The translations under genes were made by a program, and so were the position numbers. This document shows, piece by piece, positions 920 through 62,621 of a stretch of 64,000 bases of DNA. The notes under the pieces were generated by a model that worked only from the letters and a program-made list of their open reading frames with translations, did no database searches and had not been told where the DNA came from. Source of the DNA: a virus. Numbering within the stretch: position 1 is the stretch's first letter; every line of letters begins with the position of its first letter. The DNA is taken from the IMG/VR virus record IMGVR_UViG_3300042731_002679, positions 1 through 64,000 of that record; one strand, written 5' to 3'.

Positions 920-1483
920 TTAGCCGGCGGCCGGCGGCATCGACAGGTTGCCGGATGCGTAGATCAGCGTGTCCGTGTCGGTGGCGGCGGCGTCCTGGTC
1001 CACGGTCCCGACGACGTACTGCCCGGCCGTGGCCGAAGCACCGTCGAGCAAACCCGAGGCATCCGACGCGACCGGATCGCCAGCCGTCAGGCTCACGGCG
1101 CTCGCTTCGCTCGTCACCTTTACGGGACCGATGAGGACCCCGAAGAAGATGTCGTAGGCCGGGATTTCCTTGCCCACGGTGTACTGGTCGTCCAGGGCGA
1201 TGCACACGCCGCCGGCCGTGTCGTTGTACCCCGTGATGACGCCGGCGCGGTACTCGGCCGAGGCCGTGGACAGCTTGACGAACTTCTTGGCGACGGTCAG
1301 GGCCGCCGCACCGTTCTTCAGCGCGATCAGGCACACCGGGGCGCCCGTCTCGTGAACGGTGTCTCGCACCCAGAAGCGCTGGCCCGCCAGGCCAAGCCAC
1401 GAGTTCGCGTCCAGCGTTTTGCTGAACACGTTCCAGTGGCTCATGGTGGCCCCGCGATCGAACGGGAGGTAAGGGAACAGCAT
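920..1483 (-). CDS. Capsid decoration/cement-like protein
   Basis: 187 aa, with AAGGAG a few bases before the ATG. It sits directly downstream of the major capsid gene. The composition is that of a small beta-rich structural protein: Ala/Thr/Gly/Val-rich with no catalytic motif, and segments such as GVITGYNDTAGGV and ATAGQYVVGTVDQDAAA resemble the repeats of phage head-decoration and DUF2190-type proteins. Position and composition support a capsid surface or stabilising role. The exact family is not certain. Confidence 0.5.
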   Translation of the reverse strand: MLFPYLPFDRGATMSHWNVFSKTLDANSWLGLAGQRFWVRDTVHETGAPVCLIALKNGAAALTVAKKFVKLSTASAEYRAGVITGYNDTAGGVCIALDDQYTVGKEIPAYDIFFGVLIGPVKVTSEASAVSLTAGDPVASDASGLLDGASATAGQYVVGTVDQDAAATDTDTLIYASGNLSMPPAAG

Positions 1484-1545
1484 ATTTGGTACTCCTTGAA
1501 ACCAAAGTCAATGAACGAAACGAACCTCTCCGCGGTCGACCGGAC

Positions 1546-2643
1546 TTAGCTGCCGGAAGTGATCGCGGCCAGCTTGCCCATGAAGCCGGGGATTTCGACG
1601 ATCATCTGACCGTAGAAATCGGCGGCGTACAGGTCGTCGCTGGTTTCGATCTTGTGGTCTTCCTCGTACCCGACGAGTTGCGACTGCATGCTCTTGAGGG
1701 TCAGGTTGTCCCAGTTGAACATATAGGCGCAGTCAGCCGGGCAGGCGAACTCGTGGGCCAGTTCGATGCCTTTCCACTGGAGCGTCTTGTGGCCCAGTTG
1801 GGTCAGGCCCGAGTTGTTCGTCACCTCGAACTTCTCGGTCGACTGGAGCGTGTCTTCCGCCTGCCGAAGCATTTCGGTGTGCATGATGCACACTTCCGGC
1901 GCGCGGTCCTGAATCCTGCCCATGTTGAGGTACAGGAAGTTCATCGCAACACGCCACGTTTCGGCCCAGACAGCGTTCGTGATCGAGTGGGCAGCGTAGC
2001 TGGTCCACAACGCGGCCTGGTAGTCGACGACCATCGGGGACCAGGCGCAATAGTCCGTGGTGCCCGTTCCGGTGTGCGGCCACACGCCAGTCGAATCCCA
2101 GGACCCGCCCAAGTCACCGAGCGCCTGCGAGTTGCCGGCGTAGGTGCCATCGGGGTTGCCGACGTAACCGCTGCTGACAAGGCCACTGACGGAGTACACC
2201 GACTCCAACCCGGCGAGTTCGTTCGGGTAGGTTGACGAGTCGGTGTAGTACTTCTTGGGAAGCTCCTTCACGAAGTCCCGGGCGATCCCGTCGACCACCT
2301 TGTCGACGAGGTTGAAGAACGCTGCCTCGCCTTTGTTGGCCAGGCGGTCGATCTTGGCGATCTTTTCGCCGAGGTTGTATGTGACCCAGCCGAGGACGGC
2401 CTTGATCCACATATTTCTCGACGGAAACGACATGCGAACCGCGTAGGGGTCGGCCGCGGTGATCGTTCGGGTGGCGATTTCCGGTCGCCACTCGACATTC
2501 TCACCTTCGGCGTTGTACATGAGCCGGCCGTTCGATTCGAGGCCGGCGTGCATCACGGATCGCTGCTTGAGCGGATCGGTTTTCACGCGAAACCGATCAT
2601 TCAGGGTGGTGGCATCAAGCACCGCGCTGGGTGTCCAAGCCAT
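1546..2643 (-). CDS. Putative major capsid protein
   Basis: 365 aa from the ATG at 2643, preceded by GGAGAG; an in-frame ATG 12 codons upstream lacks a good ribosome-binding site. It follows a scaffold-like gene and precedes a decoration-like gene, the classical head-gene order. The body resembles phage coat proteins: an N-terminal segment with RTITAADPYAVRMSFPS, a long helical stretch around residues 70-110 (GEKIAKIDRLANKGEAAFFN), a beta-rich middle, and a C-terminal segment ending MIVEIPGFMGKLAAITSGS. The call rests on position, size and composition, not on a diagnostic motif. Confidence 0.7.
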   Translation of the reverse strand: MAWTPSAVLDATTLNDRFRVKTDPLKQRSVMHAGLESNGRLMYNAEGENVEWRPEIATRTITAADPYAVRMSFPSRNMWIKAVLGWVTYNLGEKIAKIDRLANKGEAAFFNLVDKVVDGIARDFVKELPKKYYTDSSTYPNELAGLESVYSVSGLVSSGYVGNPDGTYAGNSQALGDLGGSWDSTGVWPHTGTGTTDYCAWSPMVVDYQAALWTSYAAHSITNAVWAETWRVAMNFLYLNMGRIQDRAPEVCIMHTEMLRQAEDTLQSTEKFEVTNNSGLTQLGHKTLQWKGIELAHEFACPADCAYMFNWDNLTLKSMQSQLVGYEEDHKIETSDDLYAADFYGQMIVEIPGFMGKLAAITSGS

Positions 2644-2667
2644 GTTTAACTCTCCGATTTTCAGAGT

Positions 2668-2763
2668 CCGAAAAACCAAGGAGGGTAGCGGAGGGTTTTT
2701 CGGAGGGCCGATGTTTCAAAGCGGTTGGGCCAAGGTCCGCTAAGGATTGTCTCGCCCAACCGC
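2668..2763 (-). promoter_or_regulatory. Two stem-loops in the capsid-gene leader
   Basis: Between the scaffold and capsid genes lie two perfect 10-bp inverted repeats: GCGGTTGGGC (2721-2730) with its complement at 2754-2763, and CCGAAAAACC (2668-2677) with its complement at 2694-2703. The second ends about 25 nt before the capsid start. They could be an attenuator, an RNA processing site or a stabilising 5' structure that sets capsid expression apart from scaffold expression. No clear promoter was seen between the genes. Confidence 0.45.
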
Positions 2764-2816
2764 GAAGCCCAGAAAACGCCCCTCCAACAAAACGCTTCCC
2801 GGGCGTGTTCTCTTGC

Positions 2817-3866
2817 TTAGGTCATCTGTTCCTCGCACCACTGCATGTACTGGAAGGTGCTGCCGTTGGGGTTCTGCCCGAGCCAGTCCGCGTAGCTCAT
2901 GGTCTGCCGCGCGGGCGAGGTGGACGGCCGGGCCAGCGAACGCGGGTGCGGGTCTCGGCTGGGCTGCGGCTTGGGCATTTCCGCCTGGACCGCCTTGATT
3001 GCCCGTTGCACGACCTTCGGCCCCCAGGGCATGCCGTCTTCGACGAGCGCCGCGATCTCGGCGTCGACCTTGGTGCCGAACTCCGTGAGTTGGCCGTTGG
3101 TGTCGCCGTTGACGAACAAGGCTTCGGCGTTCTCCTCCCGAATGCGTCTGATGGCGTCCTGGTCGGCACGTTGCTGGAGGGCGGTGCGGCTTTCGGTTTT
3201 CGCCGTCTCGACGAATTCTTCTTTCGCCTGCTCAATGAGTTCCCTCACCACGGGCTCGATCGCTGCTTTTGGATCGCGGGCGAAAGCGAAGCCGGCCTCA
3301 TTGATCTTGCGGTTGACCTCGGCGATTCGATCGGCAAACCGCGGGTCCACGTCTTGCCGCAGTTGGCCGTTGGCGTCGTAGAGCCGCGATGCCGCCCGCT
3401 CGAAGTCGGAGTAGGTTTCCCAGTCGGCGTCACTGCCACCCCATGAGGGGGGCGGTTTGGTGGGCGCTGGCTCCGGGTGAATCGGCTCGTTCTTCTTCAG
3501 CCGGTCGATGACGGTGTAGAACTCGTCCCGCCGGTCTTCGGGGATGCCGTCCACGAGCCGGTGCCACTCCTGGGCCGCCTCGTCGCGGCGCCCGACCATG
3601 CGGCGGGCCTCGTCCATGCTGCGAAAAGCCGCCTCCTCGGAGTCGAACTGGGAGGAAAGGTCGACTCCAGTGGCGGCTTTGTACCGCTCGAAGAATCCTT
3701 CGCTCGGCCCGCCGTCGCCGTTTCCACCCGGGGACTGGGCGGCGTTTGTGGGTGTGGAGGGCTGGGGCGCTGGAGCGGTTCCGGGGGCTCCTGGCTGCGG
3801 AGACGCCGTGGAGGGTGGCGCTGTCGGCGCTGGGGCTGCGGAGGTTGGTGCTGAAGGTTCCGGCAT
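2817..3866 (-). CDS. Putative scaffolding protein
   Basis: 349 aa. The first ~55 residues are a Pro/Ala/Thr-rich disordered tail; the middle is strongly charged and helical (for example DEARRMVGRRDEAAQEWHRL and QRADQDAIRRIREENAEALF), and the end is short and compact (MSYADWLGQNP, then QYMQWCEEQ). This layout plus the position immediately upstream of the capsid gene is typical of phage scaffolds, whose helical body and C-terminal part contact the coat protein. No protease domain is visible. Confidence 0.65.
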   Translation of the reverse strand: MPEPSAPTSAAPAPTAPPSTASPQPGAPGTAPAPQPSTPTNAAQSPGGNGDGGPSEGFFERYKAATGVDLSSQFDSEEAAFRSMDEARRMVGRRDEAAQEWHRLVDGIPEDRRDEFYTVIDRLKKNEPIHPEPAPTKPPPSWGGSDADWETYSDFERAASRLYDANGQLRQDVDPRFADRIAEVNRKINEAGFAFARDPKAAIEPVVRELIEQAKEEFVETAKTESRTALQQRADQDAIRRIREENAEALFVNGDTNGQLTEFGTKVDAEIAALVEDGMPWGPKVVQRAIKAVQAEMPKPQPSRDPHPRSLARPSTSPARQTMSYADWLGQNPNGSTFQYMQWCEEQMT

Positions 3867-3989: not shown

Positions 3990-4238
3990 TTATCCCCGCA
4001 AAACCCCCTTTCTTACGAGAATTGCCCGAATTTTTTCTTCGGGACATTCCGGGGGTGCCTGACCATCGAAGTTGTAGTCAGCACCCCCGCACGCCAGCCG
4101 CTTTGCGCAGTCCCACACCCGGGCGGCGACCGTGGGAAGATCGAAGGTTCCAAGCCAGATGTCCTGGTTGTCGATCTTCAACTTGGCCCGGTACTTGCCC
4201 TTCTGGACGTGGTAGCTGACGCCTCGGAACTTCTTCAT
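3990..4238 (-). CDS. Stand-alone AP2-domain DNA-binding protein
   Basis: 82 aa, almost all of it one AP2/ERF-type domain: FRGVSYHVQKGKYRAKLKI (4-22), then IWLGTFDLPTVAARVWDCA (27-45) and the closing GADYNFDG (52-59). In this fold three strands read the DNA major groove and one helix packs behind. In phages the domain usually sits on the end of HNH homing endonucleases; no nuclease domain is present here. The start overlaps the stop of the upstream gene (ATGA). It may be a transcription regulator of this operon or a remnant of a homing endonuclease. Confidence 0.8.
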   Translation of the reverse strand: MKKFRGVSYHVQKGKYRAKLKIDNQDIWLGTFDLPTVAARVWDCAKRLACGGADYNFDGQAPPECPEEKIRAILVRKGVLRG

Positions 4239-4702
4239 TTCACTGGCCTCGATTGAAGTCGTTTACGGATGGCACACAAGGGGCAGGACTTGGCGTTGTC
4301 GTTGGCAAGGAACTCCCGCAAGTGTTTCGGCAGCTTGCCCAGGATGGCCGCCCGGAGTTTGTCGGGGTGGTAGTCGACCCTAGCAGCGAGTTGATCGACA
4401 GGGATGCGTGCCTCACTTTGCTCCTCGACCCATTTCGTCGCCTTTACGCCAGGGCCGAGCTTGCCGTGGACCTCGGCCAACTGCTCTCGGTAGGCTTTGA
4501 CGGCGTGGGCCAATTCGACGTAGCGAACCCCCAGCATATCCAGGGCTGCCACGCACTCGATCACGTCTTCCCGCGCCCACTCGACAAGCCCCAGGCAGAG
4601 AGCCAAATCAGGGTCCGCGACGTGACGCCTCTCCGCTTCCGGGTCGCTCCACGTCTCGGCGATCTGCTTGGCGCGTTTCTTCTGGCTGGGATTCACCGTC
4701 AA
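4235..4702 (-). CDS. Hypothetical protein
   Basis: 155 aa, not recognised. It looks helical and charged, with SQKKRAKQIAETW near the start, and ends with CPLCAIRKRLQSRPVK (one CxxC, not a full zinc site by itself). It overlaps the downstream AP2 gene by 4 nt and the upstream glycosyltransferase by 95 nt, so one of these boundaries may be off or the genes really overlap. Confidence 0.5.
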   Translation of the reverse strand: MTVNPSQKKRAKQIAETWSDPEAERRHVADPDLALCLGLVEWAREDVIECVAALDMLGVRYVELAHAVKAYREQLAEVHGKLGPGVKATKWVEEQSEARIPVDQLAARVDYHPDKLRAAILGKLPKHLREFLANDNAKSCPLCAIRKRLQSRPVK

Positions 4703-5330
4703 TCCTCGCTGTTCGACGCCCTAACCAGTTCTTTCGGGTGGGTCCGATGTGAAGAACTTCCCAGGGCGGTCTCCGAAGATTCGCCCGCGGCCACTGCTTG
4801 TAGAAAGCCGTGTCGCAGCCCTGGCAGTTGGGAAATTGGGCAGGATAGGCAAGTTCCCCTCTCAGTGACGGATCGCCGGCATGGAATATCTGGCAGTAGC
4901 CGGCGAACTCCCCCGTCTTGCTTTCGCGATCTGCGAAACCGAGCCTGCCCCACTCCTCTTCCGGGGGGATTGCGGCGTGGTTGTCCAGGCTGCGCCGCAG
5001 CGGCGAGTAGAGGAAGCCCGGCTGGTACTCGTAGTCCTTCGCCGCCCGTGGTATCACCACGTCGGCATCGAGAATCGCGATCCAGCCGAAGGGTTCCATC
5101 CACTTGAGGGCCTCATTCAAGCCTGCGCCCTTGTTTATGACAGCATTGTCTGCGAAAAACACGTCGGTTGCCAGCAGACATACCTTCTCGTCCGATTCGT
5201 GGACAAGGGCCTGTGTCCTGGCGTCCATGCTGGCCGTGACCACGATGATCTCCTCGAAGATCGGCAGCCAGCTTGGCAGCACCCGCTGGAGGTAGTCGTC
5301 GTAGCCCACGCAGGTCGTGACGGCTCGCAT
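4608..5330 (-). CDS. GT-A fold glycosyltransferase
   Basis: 240 aa. Features of a nucleotide-sugar glycosyltransferase: an N-terminal Rossmann-like part (MRAVTTCVGYDDYLQRVLP, then IIVVTASMD), and a metal-binding DxD in IAILDADVVIP (residues 84-94). The second half has PNCQGCDTAFYKQWP and EVLHIGPTRKNWLGR, the acceptor side. The last ~35 residues are polar, probably disordered, and overlap the next gene. It is one member of a cassette of sugar-modifying enzymes in the capsid operon. Donor and acceptor cannot be read from sequence. Confidence 0.7.
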   Translation of the reverse strand: MRAVTTCVGYDDYLQRVLPSWLPIFEEIIVVTASMDARTQALVHESDEKVCLLATDVFFADNAVINKGAGLNEALKWMEPFGWIAILDADVVIPRAAKDYEYQPGFLYSPLRRSLDNHAAIPPEEEWGRLGFADRESKTGEFAGYCQIFHAGDPSLRGELAYPAQFPNCQGCDTAFYKQWPRANLRRPPWEVLHIGPTRKNWLGRRTARIDGESQPEETRQADRRDVERPGSGEASRRGP

Positions 5331-5551: not shown

Positions 5552-6448
5552 TTACCAGTACGGGTTGCTCTCGCACCGCACGCCGGGAATCTCGGGGTAG
5601 TCCTCGACCCGGTCGTGCTGGAGCGGATAGGCGTGCCAGGGGTCCTCTTGCCGGAACCGCTGGCTCGGAAGGTGCGAACGGTAAAACTTACACTTCGGCG
5701 ACAGCATCGCTGCCACGAAGGAGAACGTGCTGTTCGGGGCCAAAATGACTTTACACTGCGTCAGCAGGTAGAAATCCGGGTAGAAGTCCATCTGCGACGG
5801 GTCCTTCTCTTGAAGGTCCCTGGGCAGGTAGTTGTAGTTCGGCAGCGGTTGATCGTAGAGCGACATCCCCAGGTCTTCGGCCGTGGCCGGATCGTACTGC
5901 GAGAACTCACTGACCAGCGACTTGTCTTCGGTGGCAATGAACATTCTCGGCCGGCTCAGGGTCGGCCACACTTCCTCCAGGCAACGCAAGTACCACTCGA
6001 CCGGCGTGATGTAGAAGTGCAGCCGGCCGTAGTCGCCTCGGCGAAGATGCACGCCGACCCAGGTGTCGTAGGTCCCCTTGTTCTTCACCGTCATGGTTCC
6101 GAATCGGAACAACTGGAGGAACCGCTGCTTCCACTTGCCGAAGTAGGACGTGTGATACTGGGCATAGCCGACGAAGTCCCGGTTCACCACGTCGTCGTGA
6201 TCGGGCGGCAAGGCTTGGTAGAGGTGACTGTTTTGCAGAACGGGTTCATGGTAAGGCGGCAACTCACAGTCGATCGGTTGATACCGCGCATAGAGAAGGT
6301 CTTCACCGACCCAGGGCGGAAGCTGGAGTTGGCAGCCGTGTTCTTCGGCGTAGAGCGACAGGAAGGCGTACTGGAAACACTGGTTCCCCCAGCGGCCCAT
6401 CTTGCCGAAGTTCCGCATGGTGATGATGGGTTTGTTGCTTTGGAACAC
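5552..6448 (-). CDS. GT11-type fucosyltransferase-like protein
   Basis: 298 aa, close to the usual length of bacterial alpha-1,2-fucosyltransferases. Three family hallmarks are in order: GRWGNQCFQYA at 18-28 (family GxLGNQxFQYA, with W in place of L), VGVHLRRGDY at 131-140 (the HxRRGDY motif that binds GDP-fucose), and NSTFSFVAAML at 239-249 (family NSTFSxWxAxL). The expected reaction is transfer of fucose from GDP-fucose to the 2-OH of a galactosyl acceptor. The phage shows no GDP-fucose pathway here, so it would use the host pool. It is part of the sugar cassette. Confidence 0.82.
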   Translation of the reverse strand: MFQSNKPIITMRNFGKMGRWGNQCFQYAFLSLYAEEHGCQLQLPPWVGEDLLYARYQPIDCELPPYHEPVLQNSHLYQALPPDHDDVVNRDFVGYAQYHTSYFGKWKQRFLQLFRFGTMTVKNKGTYDTWVGVHLRRGDYGRLHFYITPVEWYLRCLEEVWPTLSRPRMFIATEDKSLVSEFSQYDPATAEDLGMSLYDQPLPNYNYLPRDLQEKDPSQMDFYPDFYLLTQCKVILAPNSTFSFVAAMLSPKCKFYRSHLPSQRFRQEDPWHAYPLQHDRVEDYPEIPGVRCESNPYW

Positions 6449-6460
6449 GGCATGACTCGC

Positions 6461-7996
6461 TTAGGAGGGCTTGAAGAATTGGAGGTAGCCGCCGTGCGTG
6501 TTGATCCGGCCCACCGCCCCGCAGATCGTCGTGGCATCGGGTTCCAGGCCGAGGAACCGGACAACCGACTCCACGAACTGCACGGGCATCGACTTGATCG
6601 CCTCGTAGCTGGTTATCAGGCTCGGGCACTCCACGGTCGACAGGCAGCCCATAAGCTGCGCCAGCAGGTTCGCCGACCGCTCGAACGATTGGTAGGGTTT
6701 TCGCGGGTGCGTGTTATACAGACGCGACTGGGCCAACGCCACCAAGTCACGGAACACGAAGATGCAGCACGGGTTCCGCACGTTCGACGGCAGCATGTCC
6801 AGGGTCACACGCCCGTAGGGATTCTTGAACCCCCACACATCAAACCGCTCGTTGAGTTGCGAGACCTCATATTCCTGATCGGCCATCGACCCACGGACGA
6901 AAATCTTGTTCTCGAAGGACCCGCCGGATGCCATATCCTCGGGCTCGCCCATGTGAACCCCAAGCCCATCGAGGACGGCCGCCACCGACGACGTACCGCC
7001 ACGCGGCACGCCGACAACGAGGACCGTCTTGGGCTCGTCCGCGTCGGCCATTCCGTTGGCGACGAACATCACCGGGGCGGCGGCCCCGATGCCTTCCGTG
7101 GTGCGGTTCGTGGCAAGATCGAACGCCTCGATCTCCGGCATCTTCTCCACCGTTTTCTGCGTAACCGCCTCCAACTCGTAAACCTGCTGCGTGTTGTGGT
7201 GCTGTTGCGACAGCGCCCGCAGTTCCCCCACCAGAATGTCATTGAGCGCCCCCTTTTCTTCCGGGGCGCGGGCGTAGTTACTGGCCTCGCCGCTGGCGTA
7301 GGTGTGGTCGTACTCCAGGCCGCCCAGCACGGCCAGCGTGCGGCCACTGGCAAGCCAGTACATATTGAAGATGAACGAATCGTTGGCGTCGAAGATGAGT
7401 CTTGATCGGTGGCGTTGACGCTCGCCTTCCGGGAGTCCCAACCAGTTGGGCATTTCCAGATCGGCACGCCAACCACGGTACTCCCCGAACACCTCCAAGA
7501 AGGTTTCGCGATGCACGGTTTGGTTGCCGGTATTCAGCATGCAGCCGGCCATCGGCCGATCGACGAGATCGCCCGCTTCGCGTATCGACCAGGCGCCAAT
7601 CAGTTCCCGGTAGTCGAACTCCGGGCGTGCGAACGAAGGGCAATACCACACGTTCGGGTCAAGGCACGGTTCGACCTGCAACAGCCGGTCAATGAACTCA
7701 TGGCTCATGCAGTTGTCGGAATCGCAGTTGATAACCCATTCACCGGAACACTGGGCAATGGCCTCCAGCTTGTTGCCGAAAACGCCGAGATTGACCGTGT
7801 TTTGAAGAAACCGCGCTTTCGGACAGCCTGGACATGCCGTTACGCCGCCGCTCGGCGAAGCATCGTCCACGACGACGATTTCCGAAACAGCAGGATGGCC
7901 GTGGAGAGTTTCAATGGCACGGAAAAGAAGCTCGCCGTGTTCGCGCTCGGGTGTCAACTCGTTGTACGCGGTGATCGCAACGGAGAATTGTGTCAT
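6461..7996 (-). CDS. Fusion of GT2 glycosyltransferase and sulfotransferase
   Basis: 511 aa with two enzymatic halves. Residues 1-~250 are a family 2 glycosyltransferase: FSVAITAYNE at the start, IVVVDDASP (40-48) and the metal-binding DSDN (92-95). Residues ~322-511 look like a PAPS-dependent sulfotransferase: VLVVGVPRGGTSSVAAVL (325-342) matches the 5'-phosphosulfate loop and IFVFRDLVALAQS (412-424) the 3'-phosphate site. A helical linker joins them. The fusion suggests a sugar that is transferred and then sulfated, or a sulfated chain built by one polypeptide. Both domains carry their signature residues; the coupled reaction is an inference. Confidence 0.75.
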   Translation of the reverse strand: MTQFSVAITAYNELTPEREHGELLFRAIETLHGHPAVSEIVVVDDASPSGGVTACPGCPKARFLQNTVNLGVFGNKLEAIAQCSGEWVINCDSDNCMSHEFIDRLLQVEPCLDPNVWYCPSFARPEFDYRELIGAWSIREAGDLVDRPMAGCMLNTGNQTVHRETFLEVFGEYRGWRADLEMPNWLGLPEGERQRHRSRLIFDANDSFIFNMYWLASGRTLAVLGGLEYDHTYASGEASNYARAPEEKGALNDILVGELRALSQQHHNTQQVYELEAVTQKTVEKMPEIEAFDLATNRTTEGIGAAAPVMFVANGMADADEPKTVLVVGVPRGGTSSVAAVLDGLGVHMGEPEDMASGGSFENKIFVRGSMADQEYEVSQLNERFDVWGFKNPYGRVTLDMLPSNVRNPCCIFVFRDLVALAQSRLYNTHPRKPYQSFERSANLLAQLMGCLSTVECPSLITSYEAIKSMPVQFVESVVRFLGLEPDATTICGAVGRINTHGGYLQFFKPS

Positions 7997-8538
7997 GGCT
8001 TGAAGAACCAGAAAGAGGCGTTATCGTCGTGATCTTCGGGAACGGTATGGATGGGGGTATCGAACCGCCGGGCAAACTCGTCGGCGGCCGGCTTGACGGT
8101 CAGGGTGGGGTTGAGGTAGTCGTGGCCCGCCATGATTCCCCCTCGCCGCAGTTTGGGCCAGTAGCACTCCAGGTCACGCATCACGAACTCGTAGTAGTGC
8201 GTGGCGTCGATGTAGACGAAGTCGAGCGACCCATCGGGGATGCGGTCGGCCATGTCGTGCGACCAGCCGCGGAGGATCGCTACGCGGTCGTCGTTGCCGG
8301 CCGTGTTGGCGAGCATCCCCTGGTAGGCTTTGTCGTGGCGTTCGTTTGACCAGCCGCCGAGTTCGGCCTTCATGCCCTCGACGTGCTGCCAAAGGTCGAT
8401 GAGATACAGCAGCGACACACCCCAGGAAAGGATTTCCTTGGAGAACCGACCTTCGGCAACACCGACTTCGGCGGCGTGCCCGAGCAATTCGTGTTCGGCC
8501 AAGAGTTCACCGAACTGGCTGCGGTGTTTGATCTCCAC
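7993..8538 (-). CDS. Class I SAM methyltransferase
   Basis: 181 aa from a GTG at 8538 that follows AGGGGGGGA; a longer in-frame start exists but lies deep in the upstream gene. It matches the Methyltransf_24-type family: AEVGVAEGRFS (the SAM-binding glycine motif), LYLIDLWQH, then LDFVYIDATHYYEFVMRDLE and a GGIMAGHDY segment with the conserved GHDY. Such enzymes usually methylate sugars or small surface molecules in glycan clusters. It overlaps both neighbours by a few bases. Confidence 0.75.
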   Translation of the reverse strand: MEIKHRSQFGELLAEHELLGHAAEVGVAEGRFSKEILSWGVSLLYLIDLWQHVEGMKAELGGWSNERHDKAYQGMLANTAGNDDRVAILRGWSHDMADRIPDGSLDFVYIDATHYYEFVMRDLECYWPKLRRGGIMAGHDYLNPTLTVKPAADEFARRFDTPIHTVPEDHDDNASFWFFKP

Positions 8539-9310
8539 GATCCCCCCCCTTCTCCCAGTCGAACGTGCTGGGGTCGAAGTCTTCCATGCGCTCGGTCCAC
8601 ACATAGGGACCGAGCTTCTTGAAGTGGCTGAAATGAGTGAACCCGCCCGTGCCGATGTCGCTGGCGTTGTCCATTTGCCACGCGGCGCCCGGGACGAGGC
8701 AGTAGCAGTTCAGGGCGTCCCCGATGCGAATGAAGTTGTGGTCGATGCCGTCCGAGTTGGGCAGCATTTCGTCCAGGGCGTCCAGTACCTTGCGGGCGTT
8801 GCGGCCGTTGACGAAGTAAGCGTAGGTTCCCCACTCCCCGAACACCCGCAGGATGTGCGGATCGTCTGTCGGTTCCACGTCGCGACCGCGATGGTGCCAC
8901 GCCGCGCAGTCCGGGTTTGCGTACCACACCCCGGGCACATGAAACGTCGCCCCGAGGTAGAGCACGTCCCAGTCCCAGGTGAGGTGTTCTTCGAGGTACG
9001 CCAGCCGGTCCTGCAAGTCCTCGCAGAAGCACACGTCGTCCTCGAAGACTCCCACGATCCGATCCGAGCCAACGGCCGTGCGGATCACATGGGTCTGCGA
9101 CTGGTAGCAGCCGATCGCTCCGGGCGTCCTGGCGCGGATACGGGCCACCTTCTCTTCCGGCCCCGGCCACTCTTCCGGCAGGAACGCCTCAAAACGATCA
9201 ACCGGCAAGTTAGCGCGCGCGAACTGTTGATTGGCGTGGGCCATGCGATCCGTGCGGTGGGCCAGGTTGATTACCCAGTTATCCAGCCGGAAGCGGTCGA
9301 AGTGGCTCAT
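8507..9310 (-). CDS. Family 25 glycosyltransferase
   Basis: 267 aa. Motifs of the GT25 family (LPS/LOS beta-galactosyltransferases and collagen glucosyl/galactosyltransferases): WVINLAHRTDRM (12-23), GAIGCYQSQTHVI (64-76) and VFEDDV (88-93), where the acidic residues bind the metal. The C-terminal part is polar. It is one of four glycosyltransferases placed before the scaffold and capsid genes. Donor sugar not predictable. Confidence 0.8.
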   Translation of the reverse strand: MSHFDRFRLDNWVINLAHRTDRMAHANQQFARANLPVDRFEAFLPEEWPGPEEKVARIRARTPGAIGCYQSQTHVIRTAVGSDRIVGVFEDDVCFCEDLQDRLAYLEEHLTWDWDVLYLGATFHVPGVWYANPDCAAWHHRGRDVEPTDDPHILRVFGEWGTYAYFVNGRNARKVLDALDEMLPNSDGIDHNFIRIGDALNCYCLVPGAAWQMDNASDIGTGGFTHFSHFKKLGPYVWTERMEDFDPSTFDWEKGGDRGDQTPQPVR

Positions 9311-9969
9311 GCTTCGCCTTTTCTGCGAAAGAGGTAGTTCTCGGAATACTCCCCGATGAGGTCGTGACCTGGCAGCAGGGCGATCAGTTCGTCAAGCGTC
9401 GGATAGCCGAGGTACAACTGACCGAAGGACTGCTGGTTGTGGCACTCCACGTAGACGTAGCGGGTGCGGGCAAGGACTCTCTGCCCGCCGCGCAGCACCT
9501 TGGCCTCGGCGCCCTGCACGTCGATCCATGCCAAATCGACGGGAATGGGCAAATCAAACGTGTTGTCTGCCCACTCGTCGAGAGTCGTCGTCGGCACCTG
9601 GATCGTGGAGTCGAACTTGCACCACGGGCTGTAGCTGAGGTGCCCAGTCGGCAGGCAGAGTGACCCGCTCTTGTCCCAATCTTGCCAGTCTTCCCGCTGG
9701 CAGTTCGGCGGCGTGCCGCCCGACTGGTAGAAGTCGAACTCTCCGCACTCGTCCGACAGGGCCATTTCAACGAGGGTGGCCCGGTTGCCGACGTTGGCGT
9801 GCCACTTGGCGATCGCCCGCGGATCGCACTCGAAGCAGTAAACGTGCGCGTCGGGCAACGCCTCGACGAACCGAAGCGTGTCCTCCCCGTCGTTGGCACC
9901 GATCTCCAAGATGGTCTGGGCGAACGGCCCGAGTAGATCGGGAAGTTCCTCGATGGGAAGTTCGGGCAT
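9307..9969 (-). CDS. FkbM-family methyltransferase
   Basis: 220 aa from the ATG at 9969. FkbM (Methyltransf_21) pattern: ILEIGANDGEDTLRF near residues 20-34 for SAM binding, VYCFECDP (43-50), and VDLAWIDVQGAEAKVLRGG, the family's DVQGxExxVLxG motif. FkbM enzymes O-methylate sugars and related hydroxyls, and sit in many surface-glycan clusters. Its start lies 2 nt after the stop of the upstream glycosyltransferase. Confidence 0.8.
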   Translation of the reverse strand: MPELPIEELPDLLGPFAQTILEIGANDGEDTLRFVEALPDAHVYCFECDPRAIAKWHANVGNRATLVEMALSDECGEFDFYQSGGTPPNCQREDWQDWDKSGSLCLPTGHLSYSPWCKFDSTIQVPTTTLDEWADNTFDLPIPVDLAWIDVQGAEAKVLRGGQRVLARTRYVYVECHNQQSFGQLYLGYPTLDELIALLPGHDLIGEYSENYLFRRKGEA

Positions 9970-9971
9970 CG

Positions 9972-10742
9972 TCACGTCCTCACGTACCGGGCCATGTTGT
10001 CCTGAATGGTCTCCTTCGACCGCCAGCCCTCGGCCATCCGGGGATGCTTGATGTGGAACAAACACATTTCGGGCTCGACCGGCATTTCCGCACGGTACTT
10101 CTCGCCGTATCTTCGCCAGATTTCCCGGTTCATCCACATATCCTCCCATCCCGATCCTGCGAAGGCTTCGCAGAATCTCAGGTCCCCCAAAGTTTCCCTG
10201 GTTATCGAAAACTGGGAATTTCCGAACAGCGGTTCGCCGACCGGCTGATCGAGTTGCGGAAGGACCCGCCCCTCGTGGCGCAGCCGGTGGCGATCGTCAT
10301 CGTACCGTTCCCAGCAGTGATCCACGGCCTTGAGCCAATCCGGGTTGGTCACGTCGACCGAGAACGACACGGACGGCCGGAGGTCCCGAACCCGGTAGCA
10401 GACCTTCGTGATCCGCGGATCGGCCAACCAGCGTGCGGCCTCGAACCACCGCCGGCCGACGAGGATGTCGGCGTCGAGGAAAGTCAGCACGTCGCCGGTT
10501 GCCGCTTCGATCCCCAGGTTCAGGGCCACCGGCTTGTTGTAGAGGTCCCCATCCTGTTCGTCTGCAACGAGCCGTACCGCGTCGTATTCCGTGCCCGGCA
10601 GCAGGCTGGATCGGTTGTCGACCACGACGATCTCGAAATCCCTGATGCGGCACGCCTTGGCCGATTCCACGAGGAAATGAAGGGCGCACGCCAGGTGGGC
10701 GTTGCGTTTCCTGTGCGGAATGATGATCGAGTGCCGAGGCAT
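9972..10742 (-). CDS. GT2 glycosyltransferase
   Basis: 256 aa from the ATG at 10742; an upstream in-frame ATG is less likely. It opens HSIIIPHRKRNAHL, then EIVVVDNRSS (37-46) and LTFLDADILVG (86-96), the nucleotide-sugar and DxD motifs. The C-terminal half has FGNSQFSITRETLGDLRFCE and GWEDMWMNRE, typical of the galactosyltransferase-type C-terminal region (xxGWEDxD). It is the first gene of the leftward operon, next to the divergent promoter region. Confidence 0.8.
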   Translation of the reverse strand: MPRHSIIIPHRKRNAHLACALHFLVESAKACRIRDFEIVVVDNRSSLLPGTEYDAVRLVADEQDGDLYNKPVALNLGIEAATGDVLTFLDADILVGRRWFEAARWLADPRITKVCYRVRDLRPSVSFSVDVTNPDWLKAVDHCWERYDDDRHRLRHEGRVLPQLDQPVGEPLFGNSQFSITRETLGDLRFCEAFAGSGWEDMWMNREIWRRYGEKYRAEMPVEPEMCLFHIKHPRMAEGWRSKETIQDNMARYVRT

Positions 10743-12905: not shown

Positions 12906-13097
12906 ATGCTTGTTCTGGAACGCGCGAAGAATGAGGCCGTCCTGGTCCCTTCCGTGTCAATGAAGATCGTCGTCATTTCGATCGACAACGGCAAGGTCAG
13001 GCTGGGATTCGAGGCCCCCCGGGAAGTTGACATCGTCCGCGACGACGCCAAAAACCCCAACCCCAAGGATCGAACCAACGGCGGGGAGCAAAGGTAG
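12906..13097 (+). CDS. csrA: CsrA/RsmA-family translational regulator
   Basis: 63 aa from the ATG at 12906, behind AAGGAC. CsrA pattern: MLVLERAKNEAVLV (family MLILTRRxGExxxI), KIVVISIDNGKVRLGF, then EAPREVDIVRDD (family APKEVxVxRxEI) with the RNA-binding arginine of the last strand in place. CsrA dimers bind GGA-containing hairpins near start codons and block or stabilise mRNAs. A phage copy could rewire host translation or act on the phage's own GGA-rich leaders. Confidence 0.8.
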   Translation: MLVLERAKNEAVLVPSVSMKIVVISIDNGKVRLGFEAPREVDIVRDDAKNPNPKDRTNGGEQR

Positions 13098-13204: not shown

Positions 13205-13957
13205 ATGAGTGAAACCGCCCTACTCAACACGGCCCTCGACGCCACCTACAACGCGCTCGATGGCAAACCAGAACCCGCGTCCTACGACCGCGAACAGCTT
13301 CTCAGTCTGATCCAGGGCAGCGCCGATTGGGAGGCGGCGAGAATCGGCCGAATCACCGGGTCACGCTTTGCCGACATTCTCACCCAGCCGCGGTCGAAAA
13401 AAGACAAGGAAGCCGGCGCCCTGTCGAAGACGGCCGAATCCTACATGCTCGACGTGATCGCCGAGCGACTGACCGGCGAGGCCCAAGAGGCTCCGATCCC
13501 CCAGCGCTACGTCGAGTGGGGCCACGAACACGAGCCCCACGCCCGGGTTGTGTACGAGGATTTGACCGGCAGTGAGGTCAAGCAGATCGGACTGCTGGCC
13601 CACCCGGACGACCTGAACATTGCCGGCAGCCCAGATGGGCTGGTTGGCGCAGACGGCGGCCTGGAAATCAAGTGCCCGTACAACAGCCGAGTCCATCTTG
13701 GCTACCTGCTGGGCGGCGTGCTGCCCAAAGAGTACGAGGCCCAAGTCCACGGCTACATTTGGATGTCCGGCCGCGACTGGTGGGATTTCGTGTCGTTCGA
13801 CCCGCGGTTTGTGGATGCCGGCCTGCACGTCGCCCTGTTTCGCGTTCGGGTGCTTCGCGACGACGACTGGTGCGCCCGGCTGGACGAGGCCGTGTTCGCG
13901 TTCCGCGACAAGCTGGAAGAAACTCTCCAAACCATTCGAGAAAGGACAGCGGCATGA
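13205..13957 (+). CDS. YqaJ-type recombinase exonuclease
   Basis: 250 aa, lambda-exonuclease-like PD-(D/E)xK nuclease. Segments: QGSADWEAARIGRITGSRF (37-55, the family's N-terminal signature), WGHEHEPHAR (105-114), AGSPDGLVG (140-148) with catalytic D144, and GLEIKCP (152-158) carrying the E-x-K pair; a QVHGYIW segment follows. It resects dsDNA 5' ends for the RecT annealase encoded next, whose ATG overlaps this stop. A 107-nt leader precedes the ATG and contains GC-rich stretches and GGA motifs. Confidence 0.85.
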   Translation: MSETALLNTALDATYNALDGKPEPASYDREQLLSLIQGSADWEAARIGRITGSRFADILTQPRSKKDKEAGALSKTAESYMLDVIAERLTGEAQEAPIPQRYVEWGHEHEPHARVVYEDLTGSEVKQIGLLAHPDDLNIAGSPDGLVGADGGLEIKCPYNSRVHLGYLLGGVLPKEYEAQVHGYIWMSGRDWWDFVSFDPRFVDAGLHVALFRVRVLRDDDWCARLDEAVFAFRDKLEETLQTIRERTAA

Positions 13958-15039
13958 GTACCGAACTACAGACCACGAAACCCCAAGCGACCGGCCTGCG
14001 AGCCTGGGTCGAGCGCCCCGGCGTCCCCGAACAGATCGAGGCGGCCCTGGGCGGCGTGATGGCCACCGACACGTTCACGCAGCACATGATGATCGCGTTT
14101 CAGGACCCGGACGTGGCCAGGTGTTCCGACAAGTCCAAGTACACCGCGTTGCACCAGTGCGCCGCGATGGGACTGTTGCCCACGCTCGATCAGGTCAAGC
14201 TGATCCCGTACAAGAATGAGGTCAAGGCCATGCCGCAGTGGCAGGGCTTCAAGGCGCTCATGGAGCGGAACCCGGACATCCTGGAAGTGACCGGGCACCT
14301 CGTCCACGTCACGGACCATTTCGAGATGCACAACGGCGTGCCGACCCACACCTTCAATCCGTTCGACGAGGCCCGGACGATTGCCGGCCCCAAGGACATC
14401 GTGGGCGGCTACTGCAAGATCGTCTACCGCGACGGTCGGCCGCCGAAGTACCATTTTGTGACCCGCAAGCACATCGAGAAGGCCCAGAAGTGCGCCCAGA
14501 CGCAGAAAATTTGGAGCGCGTGGTACGAGCAGATGGCCCTGAAGACGCTCTACCGCGACTGCTACGCACGCCGGGCCGTGGCGTTCGACCCGATGGTTGC
14601 CGACCGAGTGCAGCAGGCGATCGACCTGGACAACCTCAATATGGGCAACGACCCCCGGCGGGTCGAGCCCGACGCGATCGACAGCCTCCGCAAGCAGGCC
14701 CGTCTGGCACACCAGCAGCAGGAGGCCCCAGAAGACGCCCCGGAGCCCCCGGCGCCCGAAGAGGACCCCGAGCCGACCGAACAGCCCGGAGACGCTGAGG
14801 CGAGCCAGGAGGAACCGGAAGCGGGAGGAACGGAGTGGGTCTACGCCCACCTGGACCTGGGCAAGTTTCTCGACGACATCCCCCCGGGCTGGCGACACCA
14901 GCTTCGCGAATGCGATGATCCGGCCAAAGTGGAGTACCTCAAAGCCGCCGCCGGCCGGGACAAGCGGCTGACCGACAAGGCGGTCAAGGCGATCGTCGGG
15001 GCCTGCGACCGGATTCTGGCGGCAGAGATGGGAGGGTGA
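13954..15039 (+). CDS. recT: RecT single-strand annealing protein
   Basis: 361 aa. The core (1-~255) is RecT: YTALHQCAAMGLLPTLDQ, VKLIPYKNEVKAMPQWQGF, VHVTDHFEMHNG, GGYCKIVYRDGRPPKYHFV and WYEQMALKTLYR. The tail (~255-361) is an acidic Pro/Glu linker plus a short helical end, longer than in the minimal family. It anneals ssDNA made by the YqaJ nuclease; the two genes overlap by 4 nt (ATGA). Confidence 0.88.
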   Translation: MSTELQTTKPQATGLRAWVERPGVPEQIEAALGGVMATDTFTQHMMIAFQDPDVARCSDKSKYTALHQCAAMGLLPTLDQVKLIPYKNEVKAMPQWQGFKALMERNPDILEVTGHLVHVTDHFEMHNGVPTHTFNPFDEARTIAGPKDIVGGYCKIVYRDGRPPKYHFVTRKHIEKAQKCAQTQKIWSAWYEQMALKTLYRDCYARRAVAFDPMVADRVQQAIDLDNLNMGNDPRRVEPDAIDSLRKQARLAHQQQEAPEDAPEPPAPEEDPEPTEQPGDAEASQEEPEAGGTEWVYAHLDLGKFLDDIPPGWRHQLRECDDPAKVEYLKAAAGRDKRLTDKAVKAIVGACDRILAAEMGG

Positions 15040-57255: not shown

Positions 57256-58941
57256 TTATGCTCCAATCCCGATACCGGAACCGAGAATGTGTGATCTGCT
57301 TGTCAGTGCCCACCACGGCACGCCGCTCGGCGGTGCTTCCCCCGTCGCCACCGGGAACCACCGCAGCGAGCGGTTGAGGGCGCGCTGGTAGCCGGTGCGG
57401 GAGTCGTCGTAGACCTGGCGGACTTCGGCGGCAGACAATCCGCGATTCCAAAAACGAACGTCGGAAATCTGACCGTCGAGATGCGAAGACAACCCCGCAA
57501 TAGCATCAGCGTAGGAACTGGTTGTGTGATTGTATGTATTGCTGCCAAAACTGACACCTGCTGGGCTGTCAAAATGTCCGTTGAGGCTAATTTGGATTGT
57601 GTCGTTACTGTAGTCGAGGATGCCAACGCAATGATTCCACCCATCTGCAACAGTTGTGCCGCTTGATATTGTGGATTGAAAAGCATCACCGTTCTGGCTT
57701 CGCCCCCCAGCTAAAATTTTGGTCCCGCCGGTGACGTTAATCCAGATATTGTTGTTGTTTCCAATAGAACCAGCGAAAAGCACGTTGTCCCAATAACCAG
57801 CGTCTAAGGTGCCGGAGGCATAGTAAAACCAGAGCGAGAAACAACTAGCTGAAGCACCCTGGAGTAGGTTCCCAACGCAGTTTGTTCCCAATGACACATA
57901 GTCATTGCTGCCGTCGAAGTCCAGAGCGAAGTCGCCCCTGGGAGTCGGCACCCAGTCCGTTGCCGGGTCCATACTGGTGAGCGTGCCGTCATGCTGCTTG
58001 GCCAGGTCACGTGCCAATCCACCTCCGCTGTACGTCGGTAGACCGAGCCACCAGAATTGCAGCCCATCATTCAGCCCCTCCCCCCAGTTGACCGGCTGGG
58101 CGGGGTCAACGGATGCGAGAGACCTACTGGCAGGGAACGGGGCGATACCGACTGTCGCGGCTTCCTCTTCTTCCGCTACTGCTACCGGGAAGTAGGTCAG
58201 GCTGCGGTTTAGCGTGCGGGTGTAGCCGGTGCGGGAGTCTTCGTAGATGTTCCATAGTTCGGCGTCCGACAACGCATGGTCGAAGACACGAACATCATCT
58301 ACGAGTCCGTCCCACCAGTTGTAGTTGGTGGACAAAATACGCAGTCGGCCAATCGAAAACAGGTCCGGTGTGGCCGGTGTCAGGTCGGTAGTGGTGCCAT
58401 TTTCGATTATGCCATTGACCGCGATTCGCCGCAGAGTCGAGCTATAAAATACGGCGGCAACATGAAACCAGGTATTGGCTACAACGGAGGTTAACGACAA
58501 GGCCGAGCTAACCGAACCACTTGCCCTAACCACTGCGGCAAACTTGTTGCCATTGGTCATCTGCAACTGAAACCCGTTGTTGCTGCCTCCCGCTGACAGC
58601 GAGACAGCATCACGGTAATTCCCCAGCGACCCCGCCTGGACCCAGGCTGTAATCGTAAACGGCACCGAAACATTGTGAGCATTTCCGCCATCGACGTAAT
58701 CCGACGAACCGTTGAATTCAGCAACCTGCCCACGGTCGCTAGTGACCAGCGTTGCTCCGTAGTTTGTGCCGATATTTCGGGCGGTCAGGTCGCGGCCAAT
58801 GTTGCTGCTGGGCAACATTTTGAATTGGGCCTTGAGCCCACTATTCAACGCCTCCCCCCAGTCAACCGGCTGGGCGGGGTTGACGGAGGCGAGGCTGGAA
58901 GGCAGCCATAGCTTTCGAGTTGGAGCGATGATGTTCGCCAT
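57256..58941 (-). CDS. Tandem LamG-type lectin-like virion protein
   Basis: 561 aa with two related halves. Each starts PAQPV(D/N)WGE (22-30 and 280-288), contains a concanavalin/LamG-like jelly roll (TITAWVQAGSLGNYRDAVSL in the first, VADGWNHCVGILDYSNDTIQ in the second) and ends DSRTGY-x-R-x-LNRSL-x-(Y/W)FPVA. LamG_3-type domains bind carbohydrates, so a receptor-binding role is likely. The internal duplication is clear at protein and DNA level. Confidence 0.75.
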   Translation of the reverse strand: MANIIAPTRKLWLPSSLASVNPAQPVDWGEALNSGLKAQFKMLPSSNIGRDLTARNIGTNYGATLVTSDRGQVAEFNGSSDYVDGGNAHNVSVPFTITAWVQAGSLGNYRDAVSLSAGGSNNGFQLQMTNGNKFAAVVRASGSVSSALSLTSVVANTWFHVAAVFYSSTLRRIAVNGIIENGTTTDLTPATPDLFSIGRLRILSTNYNWWDGLVDDVRVFDHALSDAELWNIYEDSRTGYTRTLNRSLTYFPVAVAEEEEAATVGIAPFPASRSLASVDPAQPVNWGEGLNDGLQFWWLGLPTYSGGGLARDLAKQHDGTLTSMDPATDWVPTPRGDFALDFDGSNDYVSLGTNCVGNLLQGASASCFSLWFYYASGTLDAGYWDNVLFAGSIGNNNNIWINVTGGTKILAGGRSQNGDAFQSTISSGTTVADGWNHCVGILDYSNDTIQISLNGHFDSPAGVSFGSNTYNHTTSSYADAIAGLSSHLDGQISDVRFWNRGLSAAEVRQVYDDSRTGYQRALNRSLRWFPVATGEAPPSGVPWWALTSRSHILGSGIGIGA

Positions 58942-60998: not shown

Positions 60999-62621
60999 TT
61001 AGGTGCTTCCGGCCTCGTAGGGATGGTCTCTGTCGACGAACACCCGCGTCCCGTCCGGCTCGACTACCCAGAAGTTGTTCACCGCGCTGCCGATCCACTC
61101 GACCAGGCCAAATGACGCCCCGCCTTCCAGCGTCGTGCCCTCGAACTCCGTGCCGGTGCTGCCGTAAATCCAGAATCCCGCCCGCAGGGTCGAGTAGCGG
61201 GGATCGTTGCCCGTGCGGACCAGTGTGCAATCCTCGATCCGGGCCGAATGGCCGACGCCCCCGGGCTCGCCCAGCAGCACGTTAGCCAGCGGTGACTCCA
61301 TGCGAATGTCGCGGTACAGCACGACAGGGTGAGGGCCGGGGTCGCTTCCGTTTCCCATCACGCTCATGCACGCGACTTGCTGGTGGAAGTCGTCCCACAG
61401 GTCCTCCGTCTCGACCGTGACCGAACCGCCCTGGACGACGATGTTGTGGTTCGTCAATCCGCCGCCGACCCAGTAGCCGGTGCCGTAGGCTTTACCGGCC
61501 AAACGAATGATGATCTCGTTGTCCCGAATGTCGAGGTTGCTGCTGTCGTCGCGGCAACGGATACCATGAGCACTCGCACGGTCGCCGTACTCGCCAGATC
61601 GGTTGATCGGCCCTTCCATCGACAGTTCGACGTAGTTGCCGACCGCCTCCGAGTCGGACCCGCCGCCGGTGAAGCTAATCGCGATGACATGCTCGCCCCT
61701 GCCGTAAATATAGTTGTAGTTGGCCGACACGTTCGTCTTGCCGTAGGCCAGCACCGCCCCAGCGTTGGTCGCCCAGGAGTCGATCATAAACTCGTTGTGC
61801 TGGATCGTGTCCCCGCCCTGGAGGTTGAACGCCCGATGCCGGGTGGTGATGACGTTGTGCTCGGCGACGATGCCGGTCCCGAGGATGCCAATCGTCGTTA
61901 CTCCGACGTGCCGATTACTGATGCCCGTACCGCGATCCCGGACGACGCTGTGATGGAGATACCCGGCATGGCCATCACGCAAGTAGATGGCCATAGAGTC
62001 GTCGCCTGCGTATTCAATCTCAACACCCGCGATTTCTGCACCCTGCATGGCAATGGAGTAGATTGGGTGCTGGTTCGTGCGCGATACCCCTTCACGAATG
62101 AAGCCATTGAACACCTCCAATCCCGAACGGTTCCAGGTGTCGCCGTGAACCCCGTATCCAAACTCACTGTTGCCGTAGGTGATCGTGTGGCCATTCAGGT
62201 CGAGCGTGACCCCGCTGGCCTGGACGGTGATTGCCGTGCCGGGCGCGTCGATGTCGGCCGTCAGGTGGTAGTGGCCGGGGGTAGCAATCGTTGTCGGGGA
62301 ATCAATGGGCGTCGAGTTGGCGAATGCCACCGGCTGGAGCGTGACGCCCTGCCCAGTCGGCTGGCCGTCCTGGTAGAACACCGCGTCGACCGCCTCGCCG
62401 GGCAATAGTCCGTCAACGTGCCAGAAGTGGCCGTGCTTGCCGCTGAATGAGGGCCGGGCCGACGACTCGCCTTCGATCTGCAAGTGAACCGACGACGGCT
62501 CGGCGGTTTCGCAGTAGACCACCGCCGCGTCCTGGCTGTCGTGCTGCCATACGTTCATCACCGAGAGAAGCGTTCGCGTCTCCAGTGGTTCGATTCGGCA
62601 TTGACGGGTTGCGGTCAGCAT
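60999..62621 (-). CDS. Beta-helix spike with planctomycete-type N-terminal motif
   Basis: 540 aa. Residues 9-20 are RIEPLETRTLLS, the LE-x-R-x-LL motif seen near the N-terminus of planctomycete surface proteins. Residues ~100-490 look like a right-handed parallel beta-helix: repeated short strands (GVTLDLNGHTITYG, ATTIGI-type turns, EVFNGFIREGV, HNVITTRHRAFNLQGG). This is the fold of many phage tailspikes and pectate-lyase-like enzymes. No catalytic residues can be set from sequence. Likely a receptor-binding or depolymerising spike. Confidence 0.65.
   Translation of the reverse strand: MLTATRQCRIEPLETRTLLSVMNVWQHDSQDAAVVYCETAEPSSVHLQIEGESSARPSFSGKHGHFWHVDGLLPGEAVDAVFYQDGQPTGQGVTLQPVAFANSTPIDSPTTIATPGHYHLTADIDAPGTAITVQASGVTLDLNGHTITYGNSEFGYGVHGDTWNRSGLEVFNGFIREGVSRTNQHPIYSIAMQGAEIAGVEIEYAGDDSMAIYLRDGHAGYLHHSVVRDRGTGISNRHVGVTTIGILGTGIVAEHNVITTRHRAFNLQGGDTIQHNEFMIDSWATNAGAVLAYGKTNVSANYNYIYGRGEHVIAISFTGGGSDSEAVGNYVELSMEGPINRSGEYGDRASAHGIRCRDDSSNLDIRDNEIIIRLAGKAYGTGYWVGGGLTNHNIVVQGGSVTVETEDLWDDFHQQVACMSVMGNGSDPGPHPVVLYRDIRMESPLANVLLGEPGGVGHSARIEDCTLVRTGNDPRYSTLRAGFWIYGSTGTEFEGTTLEGGASFGLVEWIGSAVNNFWVVEPDGTRVFVDRDHPYEAGST

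Follow-up and report, generated by a model that had tools for sequence, protein, structure and literature searches.

A predicted GT2 glycosyltransferase–sulfotransferase fusion protein encoded in a capsid-side glycan cassette of a phage

The window analysed here comprises nucleotides 1–64,000 of IMGVR_UViG_3300042731_002679, an IMG/VR virus record 68,303 bases long. On its minus strand, a single open reading frame (ORF) joins a predicted GT2 glycosyltransferase to a predicted sulfotransferase (ST), with the following features.

6461–7996, minus strand: fused GT2-ST gene, a single ORF of 511 aa with an ATG start and a TAA stop
7211–7990, minus strand: predicted GT2 half with a GT-A fold, residues 3–262 (PF00535, leave-one-out profile and model)
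7712–7723, minus strand: DSDN, the DxD metal/nucleotide-sugar motif, residues 92–95
7067–7210, minus strand: linker, residues 263–310 (pLDDT <50 at 284–308)
7139–7141, minus strand: in-frame ATG (M286) with GGAG 3 bases upstream, a candidate internal start
6497–7060, minus strand: predicted ST half, residues 313–500 (leave-one-out profile and sub-threshold Pfam Sulfotransfer_3/1)
6989–7012, minus strand: 5'-phosphosulfate loop GVPRGGTS, residues 329–336
6725–6751, minus strand: 3'-phosphate site RDLVALAQS, with R416 and S424

An initial annotation had placed both transferases on one protein at this locus, and the 511-residue ORF bears this out while adding the strand, which had gone unstated; the plus-strand reading of 6461–7996 is interrupted by a stop. 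The motifs on which that annotation drew, namely VVVDDASP (D44/D45) and DSDN (D92-S93-D94-N95) for the GT2 half and GVPRGGTSS (residues 329–337) and VFRD (with R416) for the ST half, were all located in the ORF. The start of the gene overlaps the upstream methyltransferase gene through an ATGA. Across the linker (residues 259–312), G+C content by codon position is.65/.37/.87, a pattern like that of coding DNA, and one frame is kept throughout. Initiation at M286 could conceivably yield a free ST of 226 residues. An AlphaFold2 model of the fused protein, built from a 16-row alignment, reached a mean pLDDT of 84.0 and a pTM of 0.56, and folding from the single sequence gave a mean pLDDT of only 34.7.

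The N-terminal half is readily assigned. Residues 5–107 match Pfam PF00535 (Glycos_transf_2) with an E-value of 2.3e-12 and 47.6 bits against a cut-off of 23.3, and a GT2 profile built from four viral relatives, with the window left out, covers residues 3–262 at 1.2e-104 (Z=1e6; 355 bits), with a best reported score of 4.0 bits among 200 shuffled GT2 halves. Fold prediction, which had been proposed as a check on the annotation, gave a model whose residues 1–270 match GT-A enzymes with Z up to 17.1, including GalNAc-T2 (Z 17.1; 220 residues, rmsd 3.7) and RmlT (Z 16.9; 197 residues, rmsd 2.9). The DxD residues D92-S93-D94 do not vary in the four rows of alignment A8. Profile and model alike confirm residues 3–262 as a predicted member of the GT2 glycosyltransferase family.

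The C-terminal half is a more distant relative of known families. An ST profile made without the window and its viral relatives L049 and L045 nevertheless finds the window half at 6.8e-36 (Z=1e6; 129 bits), a profile from bacterial rows alone finds it at 6e-35, and the best reported score among 200 shuffled ST halves was 0.6 bits. Against Pfam, the half gives sub-threshold matches only, to Sulfotransfer_3, _1 and _4; taken alone it misses the gathering score of PF13469 (Sulfotransfer_3) with 21.0 versus 27 bits, and it is therefore filed as a divergent relative, not a member, of that family. Its matches are to stand-alone bacterial and viral proteins. Five ST relatives do score above the Sulfotransfer_3 cut-off (L006 with 32.0, L007 with 32.4, L013 with 31.0, L045 with 31.2 and L046 with 42.6 bits), and 17 of the 20 rows of the ST family match that domain at an E-value of 0.01 or better. 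Searched against the PDB, a 20-row ST profile that includes the window matches SULT1A1 (9.7e-8) and TPST1 (5.1e-7). It also matches retinol dehydratase, a member of the same superfamily as sulfotransferases, and the other entries among the 60 PDB matches listed are Clp proteins only, with E >0.1. An identity as a P-loop kinase was rejected, as no kinase occurs among those 60 matches.

Conservation within the family points the same way. In the loop G-x-x-R-G-G-T, the first G, G334 and T335 are near invariant across the 20 rows; the 3'-phosphate arginine is likewise near invariant, with the serine varying in part of the rows, and the spacing from R416 to S424 (Ser at +8) is presumably SULT-like. 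Other conserved features are a WGxKxP motif with K391 and a near-invariant glutamate, E362, which we assume by analogy to be the catalytic base. An ordinary P-loop kinase or the lack of a PAPS pocket would have counted against the initial annotation; instead, the profile matches PAPS sulfotransferases and PAPS-binding residues are there. No ST was found among the matches listed in the fold searches; since the GT2 half fills these lists, this is no argument against the ST half. These sequence comparisons confirm residues 313–500 as a putative, divergent PAPS-type ST and not a kinase.

The fused gene lies within a compact run of minus-strand genes for glycosyltransferases and methyltransferases that leads into the capsid genes of the virus.

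9972–10742, minus strand: GT2 glycosyltransferase (PF00535 1.8e-9; homologue in L049)
9307–9969, minus strand: FkbM methyltransferase (PF05050 1e-15; TIGR01444 3.5e-24)
8507–9310, minus strand: GT25 glycosyltransferase (PF01755 7.7e-13; identity 60% in L045, 49% in L049)
7993–8538, minus strand: class I methyltransferase, Methyltransf_24 (PF13578 7e-17; identity 47% in L045 and L049)
5552–6448, minus strand: GT11 (fucosyltransferase-type) glycosyltransferase (PF01531 1.1e-6; 49% identity in L049)
4608–5330, minus strand: glycosyltransferase (GT)-like protein (no Pfam match; homologues in the L049, L052 and L053 cassettes)
2817–3866, minus strand: downstream scaffold-like gene (function from position; a 25% identical stretch beside the L049 capsid gene)
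1546–2643, minus strand: major capsid protein gene (PHROG 9953 1.6e-9; 38–39% identity in L049)

The order along the minus strand is GT2, FkbM, GT25, Methyltransf_24, GT2-ST, GT11, a 70-residue ORF, GT-like, a 155-residue ORF, an AP2-like ORF, scaffold-like and major capsid. Intergenic spacing is −32 to +12 bases for the cassette genes from 10742 to 5334, and −95 to +12 bases from the first GT2 through the AP2-like ORF. No membrane-type segment was found in any of ten cassette ORFs (hydrophobic window >1.6, with two control ORFs positive), which leaves none of the ten as a flippase or Gtr-type membrane protein. A serotype conversion cassette of the Gtr type, with its membrane flippase and membrane transferase, was rejected on this count (0/10 ORFs). 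An APS kinase was not found in the record by a search that was positive in 11 of 14 control genomes, and PAPS must therefore be supplied by the host. The AP2-like ORF (3990–4238, minus strand), which lies between the cassette and the scaffold-like gene, scores 22.5 bits against PF00847 with a cut-off of 33.3; an ORF of L049 (11683–12015) resembles it and has no Pfam match.

Whether the fusion is conserved had been left to a homology search, and among the relatives found it is not. Two scans of IMG/VR with the GT2 half yielded eight viral contigs (L045, L049, L050, L051, L052, L053, L054 and L058), among which L050 and L051 have the same coordinates and identities and are for this reason probably one cassette. 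The ST family occurs in seven viral contigs (L006, L007, L045, L046, L048, L049 and L059). A GT2-ST fusion was seen in none of the eight contigs with the GT2 subfamily and in none of the seven with the ST family, so that the fusion is probably real but not conserved; separate or missing partners in these relatives rule out a conserved one. The stretches compared around the viral matches extended up to 8 kb per side, and a more distant ST could therefore be missed. Within them, the ST is absent from six of the eight GT2-bearing contigs, with only L045 and L049 having one, and the two enzymes are therefore not an obligate pair. Searching 50,697 phage records by tblastn with the whole protein and the ST half gave no match, and a P-loop DNA pattern in viral contigs picked out five stretches with no ST among their ORFs.

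The most informative relative is L049 (IMGVR_UViG_3300009506_000025), where most of the cassette genes recur, likewise ahead of scaffold-like and capsid genes and, but for the ST/GT2 pair, in matching order. It has a continuous run of homologues of the window GT2 (the gene at 9972), FkbM, GT25, the methyltransferase, ST, GT2 (the fused half), GT11, the GT-like protein, the scaffold-like protein and the capsid protein, with identities to the window of 52.7% for GT2, 43.5% for ST and 38–39% for the capsid protein, and the ST halves of the two viruses pair with a support of 99/98. Unlike the window, however, L049 has additional genes, one of the GT34 type, and encodes ST (7962–8624) and GT2 (8621–9409) separately, with ST first and a 4-base overlap. 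The fused gene of the window stands directly before GT11, the slot taken by GT2 in L049. Had a stop simply been lost between the two L049 genes, the product would read ST-GT2; the window has GT2-ST, and the fusion therefore needed a rearrangement; a tandem copy of the ST/GT2 pair followed by loss is one conceivable route. The fusion would appear to have arisen in the lineage of the window from two genes kept apart in its relatives. A second relative, L045 (IMGVR_UViG_3300024518_002040), has ST, GT25, the methyltransferase, an FkbM-like gene (by eye) and GT2 in one run, with 31% identity to the window for ST and 51% for GT2, but here ST and GT2 are separated by three genes. When the window capsid protein was sought in ten related virus records, it was present in L049 only, with none in L045, so the link to the capsid rests on the window and L049. 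Querying IMG/VR with the capsid protein alone gave no match, a limit of the pattern method, given that L049 carries a capsid relative.

Several other viral cassettes combine related domains. An ST of the window family is fused to a class I methyltransferase in L046 (1537–2808, plus strand), with GT2-like genes on its flanks, while in L053 (6984–9473, plus strand) an 829-residue viral protein carries a GT47 exostosin domain together with the window GT2 subfamily. L052 has a Sulfotransfer_2 gene (13560–14117, plus strand; 5.8e-10) in a cassette with the window GT2 subfamily. In L006 (4832–8359, plus strand), a distantly related phage that has several virion-side gene homologues in common with the window, a stand-alone ST of the window family lies near an NDP-sugar epimerase gene.

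Twelve matches spanning the ST half were found in 10 of 248 genomes from the family of HTCC2150, and one further genome of that family has a short match at 287–351; among 244 cyanobacterial genomes, three ST-half matches occur in two, the remaining matches being to the GT2 half. Small stand-alone bacterial sulfotransferases (L002, L013 and L015) have 30–33% identity to the window ST half and the same loop and WGxKxP motif, but they lie in bacterial genomes or plasmids without a GT2 half. The Sulfotransfer_3 domain was matched in 32 of 98 cyanobacterial genomes. Nine long cyanobacterial ST frames (L061, L062, L072, L085, L090, L091, L093, L094 and L096) and, as a tenth protein, plasmid locus L004 were scanned with Pfam; L086, L092, L095 and L097 are among the long frames left out, and the long frames L035, L038, L040 and L042, which come from a separate set, were compared with a narrow GT2 profile only and did not match it. 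The only true GT2-Sulfotransfer_3 fusion among the nine scanned frames is L062, a protein of 581 aa (1291–3036, minus strand) with the same domain order as the window protein and both Pfam domains above cut-off. The GT2-ST architecture is therefore not unique, being already in a cyanobacterium. L062 is, however, cellular and not phage; its best BLAST E-value to the window protein is a non-significant 0.04, its ST half is distant (37.7 bits by the ST profile) and its GT2 half has no match above noise to the phage GT2 profile, on account of which the two fusions look independent. Other architectures among the scanned proteins include ST-GT4 (L090), ST-polysaccharide deacetylase (L094), methyltransferase-ST (L093) and TPR with ST.

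Taken together, the locus suggests a soluble two-domain phage enzyme within a cassette that would build a methylated glycan, possibly with fucose and sulfate as well and most likely attached to a virion protein, a reading to which we give a probability of about 0.5. The N-terminal GT2 domain would transfer a sugar from a nucleotide-sugar donor and the C-terminal domain would transfer sulfate from PAPS, with both PAPS and the nucleotide sugars made by the host. The cassette comprises some five glycosyltransferases and two methyltransferases and continues on its strand into the capsid genes; its glycan would be built in the cytoplasm and attached, most likely, to a virion protein; the virion is favoured as the target because the cassette is capsid-side in two viruses, the window and L049. 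We infer the activity of the enzyme with its donor and acceptor, the order of its steps and its co-expression with the capsid genes, as well as the virion as its target. Sugar addition followed by sulfation, as the initial annotation had it, is plausible. Such sequential action is made less certain by the three genes that part ST and GT2 in L045 and by the several viral cassettes with GT2 where ST is absent from the compared stretch. Mycobacteriophages are reported in PMC11256854 and PMC12619734 to have glycans on their capsids, and phage-encoded glycosyltransferases are proposed there as the enzymes responsible. The phages Che8 and Rita resemble the window in encoding glycosyltransferases, proposed there to act on the capsid, but the available text on their virion glycosylation mentions neither an ST nor a fusion. 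More tentatively, and on balance doubtfully, the virus may decorate its own capsid with a glycan that is both methylated and sulfated, by means of a dedicated two-domain enzyme coupling sugar transfer to sulfation, and sulfation of virion glycans would then be a recurrent phage trait, given that sulfotransferases of two families occur in related cassettes.

There is a lesser though appreciable chance that each half has a substrate of its own and the fusion does no more than tie their expression or stoichiometry, or that the M286 start also gives a free ST. This would fit the ATG at M286 with GGAG three bases upstream, the low confidence of the modelled linker, the three genes between ST and GT2 in L045 and the order of ST then GT2 in L049 as against GT2-ST in the window, but in L049 the two genes are direct neighbours sharing 4 bases, and in the window they are fused, which speaks for a closer tie. 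That an assembly or frameshift error joined the two genes is an origin we consider highly improbable. The fusion is known from one metagenomic record, and all eight viral contigs with the GT2 subfamily are without it; on the other hand, the codon-position bias of coding DNA stays in frame across the linker, the fused gene occupies the slot before GT11 as GT2 does in L049, and a stop lost between the two genes as arranged in L049 cannot produce GT2-ST, since they stand there in another order.

Two other destinations for the glycan are possible and less supported than a virion protein. The cassette might remodel the surface polysaccharide of the host (through receptor masking or superinfection exclusion), with the fused enzyme sulfating a host glycan, and bacterial ST relatives do occur in loci with polysaccharide genes, as on Roseobacter plasmids; this is nevertheless rather unlikely, as the ten cassette ORFs have no membrane segment and thus no flippase or Gtr-type protein, and the cassette runs into scaffold-like and capsid genes in the window and L049 alike. 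Still less probable, and well below the host surface in our estimation, is hypermodification of DNA, in which modified bases would be glycosylated and sulfated. Phage systems for base hypermodification are said to exist in the available text of PMC10829341, which cites Iyer 2013, but the record holds no member of the thymidylate-synthase family (PF00303), for which nine of 14 control genomes were positive, and the cassette lies among structural genes on the strand opposite the recombination and helicase genes. A search for Tet/JBP oxygenases gave zero matches in the record and zero in the controls too.

Phage sulfotransferases are already on record, with their function given as unknown in the available text of PMC10580990. 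That record, together with the bacterial fusion L062, qualifies the earlier statement that no phage example is well described, which holds for the fusion itself insofar as no phage GT2-ST fusion was found in the literature searched, subscription papers lying mostly outside that search. In the window the ST is joined to a glycosyltransferase, and its nearest ST relative neighbours that same type of glycosyltransferase in a glycan cassette on the capsid side. This suggests a role for phage sulfotransferases that can be tested: the enzyme would sulfate a glycan, probably one carried by the virion. If true, the glycans known from phages would gain a charged modification, and sulfated sugars could be made with a compact enzyme.

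Elsewhere in the record, in which about 85 ORFs were called and some 35 compared with a family library, the virus also encodes RecT and YqaJ-type recombination proteins, a helicase and a serine recombinase/invertase. A CsrA-family gene (12906–13097, plus strand; PF02599, 2.6e-13) lies directly before the YqaJ and RecT genes. A virion-side protein encoded at 57256–58941 (minus strand) contains two Laminin_G_3/ConA-like lectin stretches (1.1e-36). Another protein, encoded at 60999–62621 (minus strand), opens with the leader CRIEPLETRTLLS, which is reminiscent of a planctomycete surface-protein motif.
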